From: Candidatus Stercoripulliclostridium merdipullorum
Lineage (GTDB): Bacteria > Bacillota > Clostridia > Christensenellales > DTU072
Length of the DNA: 64,000 nucleotides
Direction: 5' to 3'
NCBI GenBank assembly: GCA_018713745.1
Contig: DVOH01000024.1
Span: forward strand, 1 to 64,000
The position numbers and the translations under genes are program-made. Position 1 is the stretch's first letter. Each line of letters starts with the position of its first letter. Positions 47,817 through 53,920 of this stretch are shown here, in pieces. Under the pieces are notes generated by a model. That model worked only from the letters and a program-made list of their open reading frames with translations, did no database searches and was not told where the DNA came from.

Positions 47817-48758
47817 TTATTGTCGGGGTTTGTCGCGGAGACGGAGATCGGGTCCGTTCAACGCAATCCATTTTGCGGCGGCGCGGTCGAATAAACGCGA
47901 AAAAATACGGTCGCCGTACCGGCTCAATACGCCCGATTCGTCAAGATTGGTCGTGATCATCGTCAGTTTTCCCGCACGGACGGCGATCAGTTCGTATAAA
48001 TAGGGAAGGCTCACGTTGTTGTATTCCGTTTCGGTGCCGAGATCGTCGATTACAAGCAGGTCGCACTCTTCCAAAGGCATCAGAATCTCACGTTTCCGTT
48101 CGATCGGCGCAAGATGACTGCTTAAAAACAGGCGATTCATCATCGAGGCGGGATAAATCAGCGCGGTATGTCCTTTGTCCATCACCATGTTGGCAAATAC
48201 CGTCGCGGCATAGCTTTTCCCCGATCCGACGGGACCGCTGATGCCGAAAATCGACGTTTTTTGGGCGGGAAATTTGCTCGCAAGCGCCTTGAGGAGATTG
48301 TATGCGTTGCGGTATGCGTCGCGATCGCCTTCGGGCAATGCGTCGAGATCGCCTTTCGTAAACGTTTTTTTGTCCGTTACGCGGTCGGGACAGTCTTCCG
48401 AGAGCAACTCGAACATCTTGCGGCGGATACACTCGCACAATGTGCCGTCTTTCATGCCGCGATCGCCGCATACGGGGCAGTCGGGGCGGTAAAGAAGGTC
48501 CGCTTCGGTCTTTCCGTGCGCGGCAAGCGCAAGGCGAAAATCCACAATGGCCTTGTCGATTTCATCTTGAAGTTGCCCGATCGGCTTGTTTTGGGATCTC
48601 AAACGTGCCGCTTGAAAAGTAAGCTGCAATTTTTTGCCTTCTGCCGCCGCAAATGCGGGGTCTTTGCGGAGATCGGCAAGCAGCGTTTCGATTTCCAGTT
48701 CTTTGCGGCGTTTTTCGGCTTGCAAAAGGGCAAATGCCGTTTGTTCGACGTTTTTCAT
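47817..48758 (-). CDS. DnaC/DnaI-like helicase-loader ATPase
   Basis: Zn motif 'CPVCGDRG..LCEC', Walker A 'GPVGSGKSY', Walker B 'LLVIDDLGTE'. Confidence 0.9.
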   Translation of the reverse strand: MKNVEQTAFALLQAEKRRKELEIETLLADLRKDPAFAAAEGKKLQLTFQAARLRSQNKPIGQLQDEIDKAIVDFRLALAAHGKTEADLLYRPDCPVCGDRGMKDGTLCECIRRKMFELLSEDCPDRVTDKKTFTKGDLDALPEGDRDAYRNAYNLLKALASKFPAQKTSIFGISGPVGSGKSYAATVFANMVMDKGHTALIYPASMMNRLFLSSHLAPIERKREILMPLEECDLLVIDDLGTETEYNNVSLPYLYELIAVRAGKLTMITTNLDESGVLSRYGDRIFSRLFDRAAAKWIALNGPDLRLRDKPRQ

Positions 48759-50230
48759 TACAGATCCTCCGTATCGATCGTTGCGCTGATGTCGGTGAAG
48801 ACCGATCCCAATTCTTCCTTGCTGTAAGTGCGTTGCGGATAGGGCGTTTCTTTGGGTTTTTTGGCGCGACGATCGGGGATAAGCGATTCTTCGCTTTCAT
48901 TCAGGCGTTTTGCAATGGCTTCGGCGTCCAAAACACCTTCCGCTTTCATTCGGGATAAAACGCGGTTGATGTTTGCCATCGGGAAGGGCTTGCCGGCACA
49001 ATATTTTGCCGCGGCACCGATCGCTTCGTCGTCAAAACCCCATTCCTCGACAAACGTGCGGTAGTACTCCCGGTCGGCGCGTCCGACAACGGGCAAGCCG
49101 CCCGCAAGTTCGAGGATGGCGCGGATGCTGTCGTCCGTCCGTACCGAAGCCGCAACATAGTCCCTGACGCTTGCCGCGGTCAGATAACCGAGTTTGTAAA
49201 ATTTGCCGACCAAAGCGTCCATTGCTTCGAGGGTGCGGAGATTGCGGACAAAGCAGAATTCGGCAAGGGCGCGCAAGGCGTCCTCTTCAAATCCCTTGCC
49301 CAGCCATGGATTGAGGTATACCTCGATCACCGCGTCGAGATCGGCATAGTAGGCTCCGATCTTTTTGACCAGCTCGGATGCCAGTTTTTTCAGCGATTCG
49401 CGTTGCTTCAGATAGGCATCCACTTCGGTCGCGCTGTGGGCGCCGGCATTGTGCAACTCTTCGATCAGAGCGGTCAGCCGGGTCATGCCGCCTTTCCGCT
49501 TGCAGGCGCGCGCCGCCACCAGCAAGGCGTCGAGGTCGTAGCGGTACTCCTTGCTCCACTTGAGGTATGCCTGGCGGTCTTCGAGTCCCGCTTCGGATTT
49601 CAGCCCCAATGCCGCAAATATTTGGCGGATGTCGGCGCCGTTGTTTTCGATTTCGGCGATTCGCTGCAGGACGTCGGGCTCCTTGGTCAGACCTTCTTTT
49701 GCCCAACGTTCGGCAACCGCCAAAATGTAGGGCGTCGAAGCGACCGCCTTCATGTCGATGCAATATTTGGCGATCAGGAGCATGGCGTTGATGTCGATTT
49801 TGTAGCGCTCCAGCATTTCGCAGTAACTCAGCAATTCGTTTTCGGACAGTACCCGTTCGGGGAACAGTCGCACCAGATCTTCGGTAAAGTCGGCATATTT
49901 CGACGCGTTCAGGCGGATCACCTTGGTCGCGGGGGCTTTGGGCGAGCGGTATACGACTTCGACCGGGTTGGTTTTGGTGATCGTCACCAGCCCTTCCTCG
50001 TGCCAGTATCGGAATGCCGTCATGACGCGTTCTTCACTCAGTTTCAGCGCCATCGCGATCGCTTCGATTCCGTTGCGTTCTTCGTCACCCGCCGTCGCAT
50101 AATACAGTCCGTACAGATATACCTTGACGTCCGTTCCGTCCGCCGCAGGCAGATAGTTTTTGAGAAAAACGTTGTCCACCGACAAAAATCCGTCCTTCAG
50201 GTACTCTTTCCCCAGTCTGCACAAACCCAT
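48758..50230 (-). CDS. DnaD-domain primosomal protein
   Basis: 490 aa; N-terminal winged-helix region plus repeated 'Y..W...Y..D..ALLVAA' DnaB_2-like segments; TAATG overlap with helicase loader. Confidence 0.75.
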   Translation of the reverse strand: MGLCRLGKEYLKDGFLSVDNVFLKNYLPAADGTDVKVYLYGLYYATAGDEERNGIEAIAMALKLSEERVMTAFRYWHEEGLVTITKTNPVEVVYRSPKAPATKVIRLNASKYADFTEDLVRLFPERVLSENELLSYCEMLERYKIDINAMLLIAKYCIDMKAVASTPYILAVAERWAKEGLTKEPDVLQRIAEIENNGADIRQIFAALGLKSEAGLEDRQAYLKWSKEYRYDLDALLVAARACKRKGGMTRLTALIEELHNAGAHSATEVDAYLKQRESLKKLASELVKKIGAYYADLDAVIEVYLNPWLGKGFEEDALRALAEFCFVRNLRTLEAMDALVGKFYKLGYLTAASVRDYVAASVRTDDSIRAILELAGGLPVVGRADREYYRTFVEEWGFDDEAIGAAAKYCAGKPFPMANINRVLSRMKAEGVLDAEAIAKRLNESEESLIPDRRAKKPKETPYPQRTYSKEELGSVFTDISATIDTEDL

Positions 50231-50276: not shown

Positions 50277-50305
50277 TTGCAAATTAAAGTGTTCGGTTGT
50301 ATAAT
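50277..50305 (+). promoter_or_regulatory. Putative promoter for SbcC-like gene
   Basis: TTGCAA-17 nt-TATAAT; about 145-nt 5' UTR follows. Confidence 0.6.
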
Positions 50306-50456: not shown

Positions 50457-53400
50457 ATGAAACCTATCAACCTTGTTTTCCAAGGCATCGCCAATCGCAG
50501 CGAAACGTACGATTTCGGCAATCGCGCCGGCGGTTGTATCGTTTTGCCCGACGCCGATTTGCCGTTGGTTCGTCAGGCAGTCGTTCTTGCGTTGTTCGGT
50601 GCGGGCAACGATTCGGTAGACCTGACGCTTCCCGTGCAGATCGAATTCAAGTTTGCGCTCGGCGAAGAGGAATACACGTTGATTCGCCGTTTCGACGCCG
50701 ACGAAGGCGGCCACGTTGCCGAAACCGCGATTATTACCGACCTTGCCGAACAAGTCGTTTATGCCGAAGGAAAAGCCGAAGTCGACGCATATGTTGCCGA
50801 CCGTTTGGGGCTGAAAGTCAATGCCTTCGAGCGGTTGTTTGCCATCGATCTTGCCGACGCCGACGCCATCAATGCCGATGCGACGGTGCGTGAAAGTTTT
50901 ATTGCCGAGCATCTCAGCGGGATCGCGACGCCCGACGAAGTGATCACCAACTTTGCCGATCTCAGCGAGAAGGAAGCGGGTCTGATGGCGAAGATCGAAG
51001 GGATCGATCCGGTGACGCGCGATCAGATTCAGGAACACAAATTGGTCGTGGACAGCGACACCATCCGCCTGAACGAAATCCGCAAGGAGATGGACGAAGT
51101 ACAGACCGACATCAAATATGCCGCGGAGTATCAGCAGAACCTCGACAACTACTATCAATCCACTGCAAATCTCGAAAAGCTTCGCGAGCGCGAGCCCGAG
51201 ATCGAAGGGATCAAGGAGCGCGAAAAACGCGGCAGACTGGCGCGTTCGATCGAAGGGGTGGTGACGCGATACGACAGCGTGAAAGCGGAAGCGCAGGCGC
51301 TGAGAGCGTCGCTTGCCGATCAAGAAGCCAAAATCGAAGGGCTTCAGAAAAAGCTGACCGAAGGCAAAGCCGCCCAAAAGAGCCTGGAAGAAAAGTTTGT
51401 ATATCACAACGCACGGGTCGAAGAGTATCGCAACGCGCTCAATCGCATCATTGCGGACGGAGCCGCCGATCCGACGACACTTAAGATCAACAACGAAGTG
51501 CAAAGTTATTATGCCGACGCCGACCGTCAAATTGCCGAATTAACCGAACGCAAGGACGCGGTCGATGCCGAAGTCGAAGCCCTGCAACGCGAAGTTGCGG
51601 CTTTGCGTGCCAAAGAGCAGGATATCCGCAATGCGGCGGCATATAAGAGCGCGGTTTACAGAGGCGCCGCCCTCGAAGGATTGCGCAGCAGAATCGCATC
51701 CGAGATCGAAGGGGGCGAAAAAGCGATTGCCGATCTCGAAAAGCGTCTGGTCGAACTGTACGAAAACGGGGAAGGCGTTGACAAGAAGGTGCGCGAACTC
51801 CGCGCGACGACAGACTCGCTGCTTGCCAAAATCAAAGGACGTCACAACACGGTACACGAAGCGATCGACGCCGACGCGTTGCAAAAGATCACGCTGTATC
51901 TCAATCATATTATGGCGAGCAACTATTCGATCGAACTGGACGCCGTCCTCAAAAAGATCGAAGACGTCGAACGCGCCAACGCAACATACGTTGCCCGTAC
52001 CGAAGAAAAACGTGCGGCGATTGCCGAAGTCAAGGCGCATCTCGCGCGGCTAGAAGAGCGGTACCGTCTTCTCAACGAGAAGCTGACCGAATATTTGAGT
52101 TACAATCGGTTGCGGGATATTTCGGACGACATCGAGTACGGCAGTCACTGTCCGGTGTGCGACGGATTTGTCGCGTACAAAAAGAAACTTCCGCTCCGCG
52201 ATACCAAGGCGATCGAGTCGCAGATGGATGCCGTCAAAGCGGAAATCGAAAAGGATCGCGCGTTATTGGTTTCGGCGACCCATGACGTGGGACAACTGGA
52301 GTCGGCGGTTACGGTCAGCGAGCAATACCGCAACGCTTTGATCGAAACGCGGGACGCCCGCAAAGCGGTGCTGGACGATATTCTCAAAAAATTCGGATGT
52401 GCCGACACTGCCGAACTGCGGCAGAAATCGGAGCAGGCGGCGGCGCGCAGCAACACATTGACGCGAGTTCTCGAGCGGTATTATCAGACCGAAGCCGAAC
52501 TGCGGCAAAACACCGAAGCGCTGACGAAGATCAAGGACGAAATCTCGTATATCGAGTCGTCGACCCTGCCTGCCGAGCGCGACAGACTGGATGCAAACAA
52601 GGCGGCGCTTGCCGAAGCCGATGCGGCGTACGCCGAATTGGAAGGCTATTTCAACGGCGAAAGCGCGACGAGCCTTGCCGAAAAACTCGAGGTGGTCGAA
52701 CGCGAAACGGAGACGACGATTGCCGAACGCGAAACCAAAGAAGAACGCCTGCGGGAACTGTCGGATCAGCAGGAAGAATACTTCCGTACGTTGATGCTGT
52801 TGTCCACGCGGTCGGTCAAGGTGGAAGCCGACGGCGTCGAAATGGAATATTCGGACGTGGTCGCCAAGGTAATTATGCGCCTGATGCACGGGATCACGGC
52901 GGAAATCGAAAAGAACGAAGCCGAAAAAGACGTTGCCAAAGTCCGTCTTGCCGCGGTTCGCAAAGTCAATGCAGAAACCGAAGATGCGATTGCGGCGCAG
53001 AAAGAGCAGACCATTGCTTCGCGCGCGGCGATCGAGGCAAGCGAGAAGGTCGCCGAAGAAATTTTCAACGAGTACAAAGAGTCGTTCGATTTGCTGAAAG
53101 TCCGCTCTCATGCCGACCTCGAGCAGTATCTCGAATCGGAAGAAACGTTGGACGGCTACCGCGATCAGACCAATCAATATGCCGACGAAGTGGTTGCCAT
53201 CCGTGAGCAACTCAACATTTACGCCGACCGCGTCAATGCTTTGGGCGATTATTTCGACGCGGTGGAAGACAACAAATTCAAACTGGAAAAACTGCGTGCG
53301 GAAGAGCAGGTCGCCATTTCCGCCCTCAACGAAAGCCGCGTCGAGCAAGGCTCGATGGAACACCGTTATAAAGAACTGGTCGAATCCAATCAGCATCTTG

Positions 53401-53846
53401 CCCATCTCCAGTCCCGTCTGAAGAAGATCGAAGATCTTGCGCCCGCAATCAGCGAGGGAGCGATCATCGCCAAAGACCTTGCCGCGTTGATTGCCGAACG
53501 CCAGGAAGGCATCGTCAAAACGGTTTCGGCAGACCGATACGGCATCCGTATGGAAGAAGACGGTCATATCGCGCTGATTAACAATCGCCGTAACGGCAAA
53601 GAAGTATTGCCCGAAAAATACACCAAAGAAGAGCGGATGCTGATCCGGTTCTCGGCGGCGGCGGCATACAACCGTATCGTGACCGAATTGCTGGGAGGCG
53701 AAACCACGCCGATCATGGTGCTGGAAGAGGATGCCTGCGACAAAGCGCAGATCGGCGTGCTTGCAGAATATGCCCGCAACAACGATCTGATCGTTATGCC
53801 CCGCAACGAAAACGCGTTTTTCAAAGCGGCAAGCAAACTTTCTTGA
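50457..53846 (+). CDS. SbcC/Rad50-like coiled-coil protein with zinc hook but degenerate ATPase motifs
   Basis: 1129 aa; N-terminus MKPINLVFQGIANRSETYDFGNRAGG..QAVVLALFG aligns by eye to SbcC; long coiled coils; 'HCPVCDGF' hook at residue ~565; no Walker A; GGAGGAG SD before ATG 50457. Confidence 0.75.
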   Translation: MKPINLVFQGIANRSETYDFGNRAGGCIVLPDADLPLVRQAVVLALFGAGNDSVDLTLPVQIEFKFALGEEEYTLIRRFDADEGGHVAETAIITDLAEQVVYAEGKAEVDAYVADRLGLKVNAFERLFAIDLADADAINADATVRESFIAEHLSGIATPDEVITNFADLSEKEAGLMAKIEGIDPVTRDQIQEHKLVVDSDTIRLNEIRKEMDEVQTDIKYAAEYQQNLDNYYQSTANLEKLREREPEIEGIKEREKRGRLARSIEGVVTRYDSVKAEAQALRASLADQEAKIEGLQKKLTEGKAAQKSLEEKFVYHNARVEEYRNALNRIIADGAADPTTLKINNEVQSYYADADRQIAELTERKDAVDAEVEALQREVAALRAKEQDIRNAAAYKSAVYRGAALEGLRSRIASEIEGGEKAIADLEKRLVELYENGEGVDKKVRELRATTDSLLAKIKGRHNTVHEAIDADALQKITLYLNHIMASNYSIELDAVLKKIEDVERANATYVARTEEKRAAIAEVKAHLARLEERYRLLNEKLTEYLSYNRLRDISDDIEYGSHCPVCDGFVAYKKKLPLRDTKAIESQMDAVKAEIEKDRALLVSATHDVGQLESAVTVSEQYRNALIETRDARKAVLDDILKKFGCADTAELRQKSEQAAARSNTLTRVLERYYQTEAELRQNTEALTKIKDEISYIESSTLPAERDRLDANKAALAEADAAYAELEGYFNGESATSLAEKLEVVERETETTIAERETKEERLRELSDQQEEYFRTLMLLSTRSVKVEADGVEMEYSDVVAKVIMRLMHGITAEIEKNEAEKDVAKVRLAAVRKVNAETEDAIAAQKEQTIASRAAIEASEKVAEEIFNEYKESFDLLKVRSHADLEQYLESEETLDGYRDQTNQYADEVVAIREQLNIYADRVNALGDYFDAVEDNKFKLEKLRAEEQVAISALNESRVEQGSMEHRYKELVESNQHLAHLQSRLKKIEDLAPAISEGAIIAKDLAALIAERQEGIVKTVSADRYGIRMEEDGHIALINNRRNGKEVLPEKYTKEERMLIRFSAAAAYNRIVTELLGGETTPIMVLEEDACDKAQIGVLAEYARNNDLIVMPRNENAFFKAASKLS

Positions 53847-53869
53847 TTGATTCATAACTATATAGGCGG

Positions 53870-53902
53870 CAATTCCGCTCCCGTAAGGGGCGGAATTGTT
53901 TT
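53870..53902 (+). terminator. Intrinsic terminator after SbcC-like gene
   Basis: CAATTCCG-CTCCC-GTAA-GGGG-CGGAATTGTTTT. Confidence 0.75.
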
Positions 53903-53920
53903 AGCCGAGGGGTAAAACCG

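Follow-up and report, generated by a model that had tools for sequence, protein, structure and literature searches.

SbcC/Rad50 of the SbcCD (Mre11-Rad50) complex, with its two-lobed head fold, antiparallel coiled-coil arms and central CPxC zinc hook, is the closest described system to the gene analysed here. This gene lies in the window, the whole 64,000-nucleotide stretch of DNA under study, and encodes a protein with the same architecture from the genomic spot that active sbcDC occupies in sister families. Unlike SbcC/Rad50, the window protein lacks the Walker A, Q-loop, signature, Walker B and H-loop motifs and has no SbcD; its arms are about 100 residues longer, and its hook, rather than its head, is the best-conserved part. 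RloC, a zinc-hook ABC ATPase tRNase, likewise has an ABC head interrupted by a coiled coil with a zinc hook, and has it outside a Rad50 complex (PMC2610378), but keeps its ATPase motifs and an anticodon-nuclease domain, neither of which is found in the window protein. SMC/condensin-type proteins resemble it in their long arms, apical dimerisation and split head, and were drawn into its Foldseek list by those long arms, whereas the window protein has a CPxC hook in place of their hinge domain, a dead head, and its best head matches by sequence in Rad50. No paper describing Rad50 or SMC ATPases that are dead or degenerate was found in the open-access literature searched, which agrees, within that limit, with the original prediction that no described family matches this protein.

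The gene is one intact open reading frame of 1129 amino acids with an ATG start, preceded by the ribosome site GGAGGAG, which is conserved in relatives. The AlphaFold model, built from 22 sequences with a mean pLDDT of 81.9 (mostly 85-95 in the head blocks), forms a two-lobed head from both ends of the chain and two helical arms with the hook at their tip, and its pTM of 0.42 is as expected for a long rod. The C-terminal lobe follows the strand and helix order of an ABC lobe. The CPVC hook falls at residue 565 of 1129, the exact midpoint; the predicted layout of two long arms around a central CPVC is thus borne out by both reading frame and model. The features of the locus are as follows.

50457..53846, + strand: ATPase-dead SbcC/Rad50 orthologue, 1129 aa (ORF, profiles, AlphaFold, Foldseek, motif census)
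50457..50936, + strand: residues 1-160, N-terminal lobe of the head, with other residues at P-loop and Q-loop (hhalign match to the N-head of active SbcC)
50538..50582, + strand: former Walker A position, residues ~28-42 (profile alignment; family conservation 0.51 versus 0.86 in active SbcC)
51018..52130, + strand: residues 188-558, first coiled-coil arm, length ~55 nm if each residue adds 0.1485 nm (AlphaFold/DSSP)
52149..52160, + strand: zinc hook CPVC, residues 565-568 (CPxC in 31/31 homologues; C565, P566 and C568 invariant)
52077..52331, + strand: hook region, residues 541-625, best-conserved part of the protein (conservation 0.72, core 0.79; heads 0.56-0.59)
52206..53432, + strand: second coiled-coil arm, residues 584-992 (AlphaFold/DSSP)
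53454..53843, + strand: residues 1000-1129, C-terminal lobe of the head, with other residues at signature, Walker B and H-loop (hhalign; model)
50277..50305, + strand: sigma-70-like promoter TTGCAA-17-TATAAT (consensus only; 0.7 expected by chance)
53865..53906, + strand: strong hairpin 3′ of the gene, perhaps a terminator (z -3.8; no call in the terminator scan)
48758..50230, - strand: DnaB/DnaD-like replication initiation protein, divergent conserved neighbour (Pfam DnaB_2 1.3e-16; 20/20 loci)
47817..48758, - strand: DnaI-like helicase loader, in an operon with the DnaB/DnaD-like gene (IstB/DnaI-type AAA 4.8e-6; 20/20 loci)

The original prediction also assigned the gene its own promoter, a long structured leader and a terminator, each of which held only in part. 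The promoter-like site scores 10/12 but is little more than chance would supply, the leader shows no more than mild structure (z -2.05), and the hairpin, although stable (-26.7 kcal/mol), has a short T-run.

Homology of the heads to Rad50 emerges only from profiles. Pfam gave no relevant match for the window protein or for any of the 26 relatives in the alignment, and a single-sequence phmmer search of the window protein against PDB and Pfam returned nothing. The family profile (hmmsearch, PDB), by comparison, matches archaeal Rad50 3aux (E 1.5e-8) in an alignment that runs from residue 1 across the P-loop, and the Rad50 C-terminal lobe 3qkr_B (E 1e-3) across LSGGE. When hhalign is restricted to the heads, so that the coiled coil cannot create the match, the N-lobe aligns to the N-head of active SbcCs from the same order with prob 99.3 (E 1.9e-20; column-reversed decoy prob 0.2) and the C-lobe to their C-head with prob 94.2 (E 1.2e-7; decoy prob 1.0). 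Foldseek places the modelled heads on Rad50 (3auy, 3qf7) and E. coli SbcC (6s85, 7yzp) with probability 1.0. Profiles and fold comparison together show a split ABC-type head homologous to Rad50, and the window gene is an SbcC/Rad50 homologue.

These heads have lost every motif needed for ATP binding and hydrolysis, a statement that rests on motif loss without biochemistry. In the profile alignment, 'GCIVLPDADLPLVRQAVVLALFG' of the window protein lies over 'GVFGICGNSGSGKSAIIDSIIIALYG' of active SbcC, and 'YTKEERMLIRFSAAAAYN' lies over the signature block. The P-loop of active SbcC (GxTGSGKT) aligns to VLPDADL, the Q-loop (VQGE) to IDLA and the LSGGE signature to TKEER; other residues likewise stand at Walker B and at the H-loop, whose His is absent on inspection of the alignment. 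Among 31 near-full-length relatives from the same bacterial family, a motif census finds Walker A, SGG[EQ] and Walker B DE in 0/31 each, while all 31 retain CPxC; in the control census, 31/31 active SbcCs of the same order carry Walker A, signature and Walker B. The loss in the window protein is therefore not a matter of chance. The original reading of a zinc-hook, SbcC/Rad50-shaped pseudo-ATPase with altered P-loop, Q-loop, signature and Walker B accordingly held, now with profile homology, fold match, family-wide loss and shared synteny behind it, and with the H-loop added to the list of replaced motifs.

The full-length dead protein is maintained by purifying selection. A window-type gene is found by sequence in 28 of the 34 genomes of this family of uncultured gut and digester bacteria, and by position in five more (33/34); the sole genome without one also lacks a dnaD match. 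All complete copies in the family are full-length and open, and pairwise dN/dS is 0.03-0.19, ratios that are approximate because pairwise dS is near saturation. Together with presence in 33/34 genomes, these values indicate that the gene is not decaying. The maximum of conservation has shifted from the heads in active SbcC (heads 0.59-0.67, hook core 0.47) to the hook in the dead family, where dN is lowest at the hook in nearly all pairs and conservation extends well beyond CPxC. Conservation of the former P-loop segment does not exceed that of the arms (0.51 versus 0.52), as against 0.86 for the P-loop and 0.97 for the signature in active relatives. The dead heads nonetheless remain under purifying selection, with G48, F66, Y73 and R77 invariant and E1058/E1059, at the signature position, nearly so.

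The neighbourhood ties the window gene to active sbcC. In 20/20 loci that reach far enough, the dnaD/dnaB-like and dnaI-like operon is divergent from the window-type gene, and at the same dnaD spot f32, f19, two f15 genomes and one f29 genome carry sbcD-sbcC with all catalytic motifs. Because active sbcD-sbcC occupies this spot in sister families, the window gene represents SbcC at an ancestral sbcDC-dnaD-dnaI locus; it is orthologous to active sbcC by position, and slightly closer in sequence to the dnaD-linked SbcC type (E 1.9e-20) than to the unlinked type (8.6e-17). Homology, motif loss, synteny and selection together show an SbcC orthologue that lost its ATPase and SbcD and was then kept, which goes beyond the original prediction in placing the gene at this ancestral locus, in the death and loss of its SbcD and in the hook being its best-conserved part. 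A search of 291 genomes of the class returned weak partial matches only, and no such gene showed up at the dnaD spot in the sampled loci of f3, f6, f8, f10, f17, f28 and f30.

Two further families carry dead copies. Three f14 genomes hold an sbcD-sbcC operon in which both subunits are dead; the SbcC has no ATPase motifs, one copy retaining a vestigial P-loop, GESDSGKE, versus GxTGSGKT in active copies, and in the SbcD of 3/3 genomes DWH has become DWN, GD has become GN, and GNHD, GHxH and the catalytic SH are missing. These loci (L142, L144, L171) combine an ATPase-dead SbcC with an SbcD whose five metallophosphoesterase motifs are all destroyed, which makes the Mre11-Rad50 pair doubly dead. 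One of the three genomes has this operon at a distance from dnaD, and in two further f14 genomes the dnaD spot is taken up by something else. In f20, 18/18 sampled loci (L134, L174-L189, L229) encode a 1050-1250-aa dead SbcC-like protein divergent from dnaD, without a hook and without sbcD. Its N-lobe matches active SbcC more weakly (prob 71.8; C-lobe 95.4) and the window gene's family with prob 96.9. In some f20 copies (L175:501-4241, L181:691-4284, L184:673-4242) the head is followed by a long C-terminal tail, acidic and rich in Ser/Pro/Glu, that other f20 copies lack.

At least two separate erosions of the ATPase are likely, although this is not proven. The first DnaD tree was disturbed by long rows of f1, the window gene's family, and a second was built without them. 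In the DnaD tree, f1 and f14 fall in one clade (support 98/95), the rest of which consists of families lacking such SbcC or SbcD genes at the dnaD spot, and f20 falls with active f15/f29 (support 96/94). Forcing f1, f14 and f20 into one clade costs 6.8 log units (AU p 0.075), and a single clade is not firmly rejected. The hook state agrees with this grouping: the hook is missing from f20 and from the active f15 and f29 copies, and present in f1, f14, f32 and f19. Active SbcCs of f15, f28 and f29 (L147, L151, L152, L213) lack CPxC while keeping all ATPase motifs.

The absence of an sbcD neighbour, noted in the original prediction, extends to the genome; the SbcD family model finds no SbcD beside the window gene or elsewhere in its genome, and the SbcC and SbcD family models find no canonical pair there. 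A clear SbcD is present in only 4/34 family genomes, where it is part of a separate canonical sbcDC. In these genomes (G002, G010, G017, G033; L162-L165) the canonical sbcDC is a second, unlinked copy besides the dead one, and the dead protein is therefore no simple stand-in for missing SbcCD. The window genome, from an uncultured clostridial bacterium whose nearest relatives with names are MAGs such as Candidatus Stercoripulliclostridium and Christensenellaceae bacteria, also encodes RecN, a 1253-aa protein of SMC size and an AddA homologue that scores below the curated cut-off.

We lean, by a modest margin and without biochemistry, towards the dead rod being an ATP-independent tether or scaffold dimerised through its zinc hook. 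The hook of Rad50 dimerises constitutively (PMC6969161), and two protomers would join via one zinc ion held by two CPxC hooks, a dimer inferred from CPxC conservation only. Each ~55-nm arm would carry a frozen, non-cycling head, and DNA or a partner protein would dock on these passive heads. B. subtilis SbcC reaches active forks through the SSB C-terminal tail (PMC3000357), and by analogy the rod may be sited at the replication fork. The structural tether of the original prediction thus remains an inference, and its envelope tether is without support. Against the tether stand the hookless f20 copies, which show that a dead SbcC can persist without a hook. Against plain dimerisation, the hook is less conserved in active hooked SbcCs, and its strong constraint in the dead family may reflect a new partner. 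Since the dnaD linkage predates the loss of activity, it alone is no proof of a replication role.

Among the alternatives, a standard active SbcC with hidden or misaligned motifs would explain the SbcC-type head fold and hook, but can be all but dismissed; the P-loop, Q-loop and signature positions lie over non-matching residues in the profile alignment, none of the 31 relatives carries a scored ATPase motif although P-loop and signature are strongly conserved in active relatives, and SbcD is absent from the window genome. Loss of catalysis and of SbcD would also suit a decaying remnant, whether a pseudogene or a slowly dying functionless gene. We consider this highly improbable given open, full-length copies throughout the family, the low dN/dS, the conserved ribosome site and the hyperconserved hook.

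The heads might still bind a ligand, either nucleotide in a non-canonical manner or DNA ends, and act as a conformational switch as in pseudokinases. Their invariant residues, the nearly invariant glutamates and purifying selection speak for such a role, but the former P-loop segment behaves like the arms and no replacement motif stands out, making this unlikely. A stronger contender, though one we hold to be clearly less likely than not, is a regulatory subunit of a machine encoded elsewhere (SMC, RecN, AddAB or the neighbouring DnaD-DnaI helicase loader) rather than a self-sufficient tether. The conserved divergent pairing with dnaD-dnaI, the RecN, AddA-like and SMC-size proteins of the window genome and the conserved surround of the hook are in its favour; against it, the dnaD linkage is ancestral, as active sbcDC shares it, and no direct evidence for a partner exists.

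Returning to the tether reading, a bolder version holds that the Mre11-Rad50 locus beside dnaD-dnaI has been repeatedly stripped of both activities in Clostridia while the full-length rod was kept, a proposal that could as easily prove wrong as right. If true, Rad50 has a conserved ATP- and nuclease-independent function, as a tether or scaffold probably tied to replication, that is able to stand alone. Motif loss, without biochemistry, indicates that SbcC-like genes can encode proteins devoid of catalytic activity. In the active complex, any useful work of the zinc hook and coiled coil that needs neither nuclease nor ATP cycling is hard to tease apart; one locus here presents an active complex, a doubly dead complex and a hooked dead rod alone, and evolution has apparently made the separation. 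These families offer natural test cases for the role of the Rad50 rod, and suggest that rod and hook alone may do a job worth preserving.
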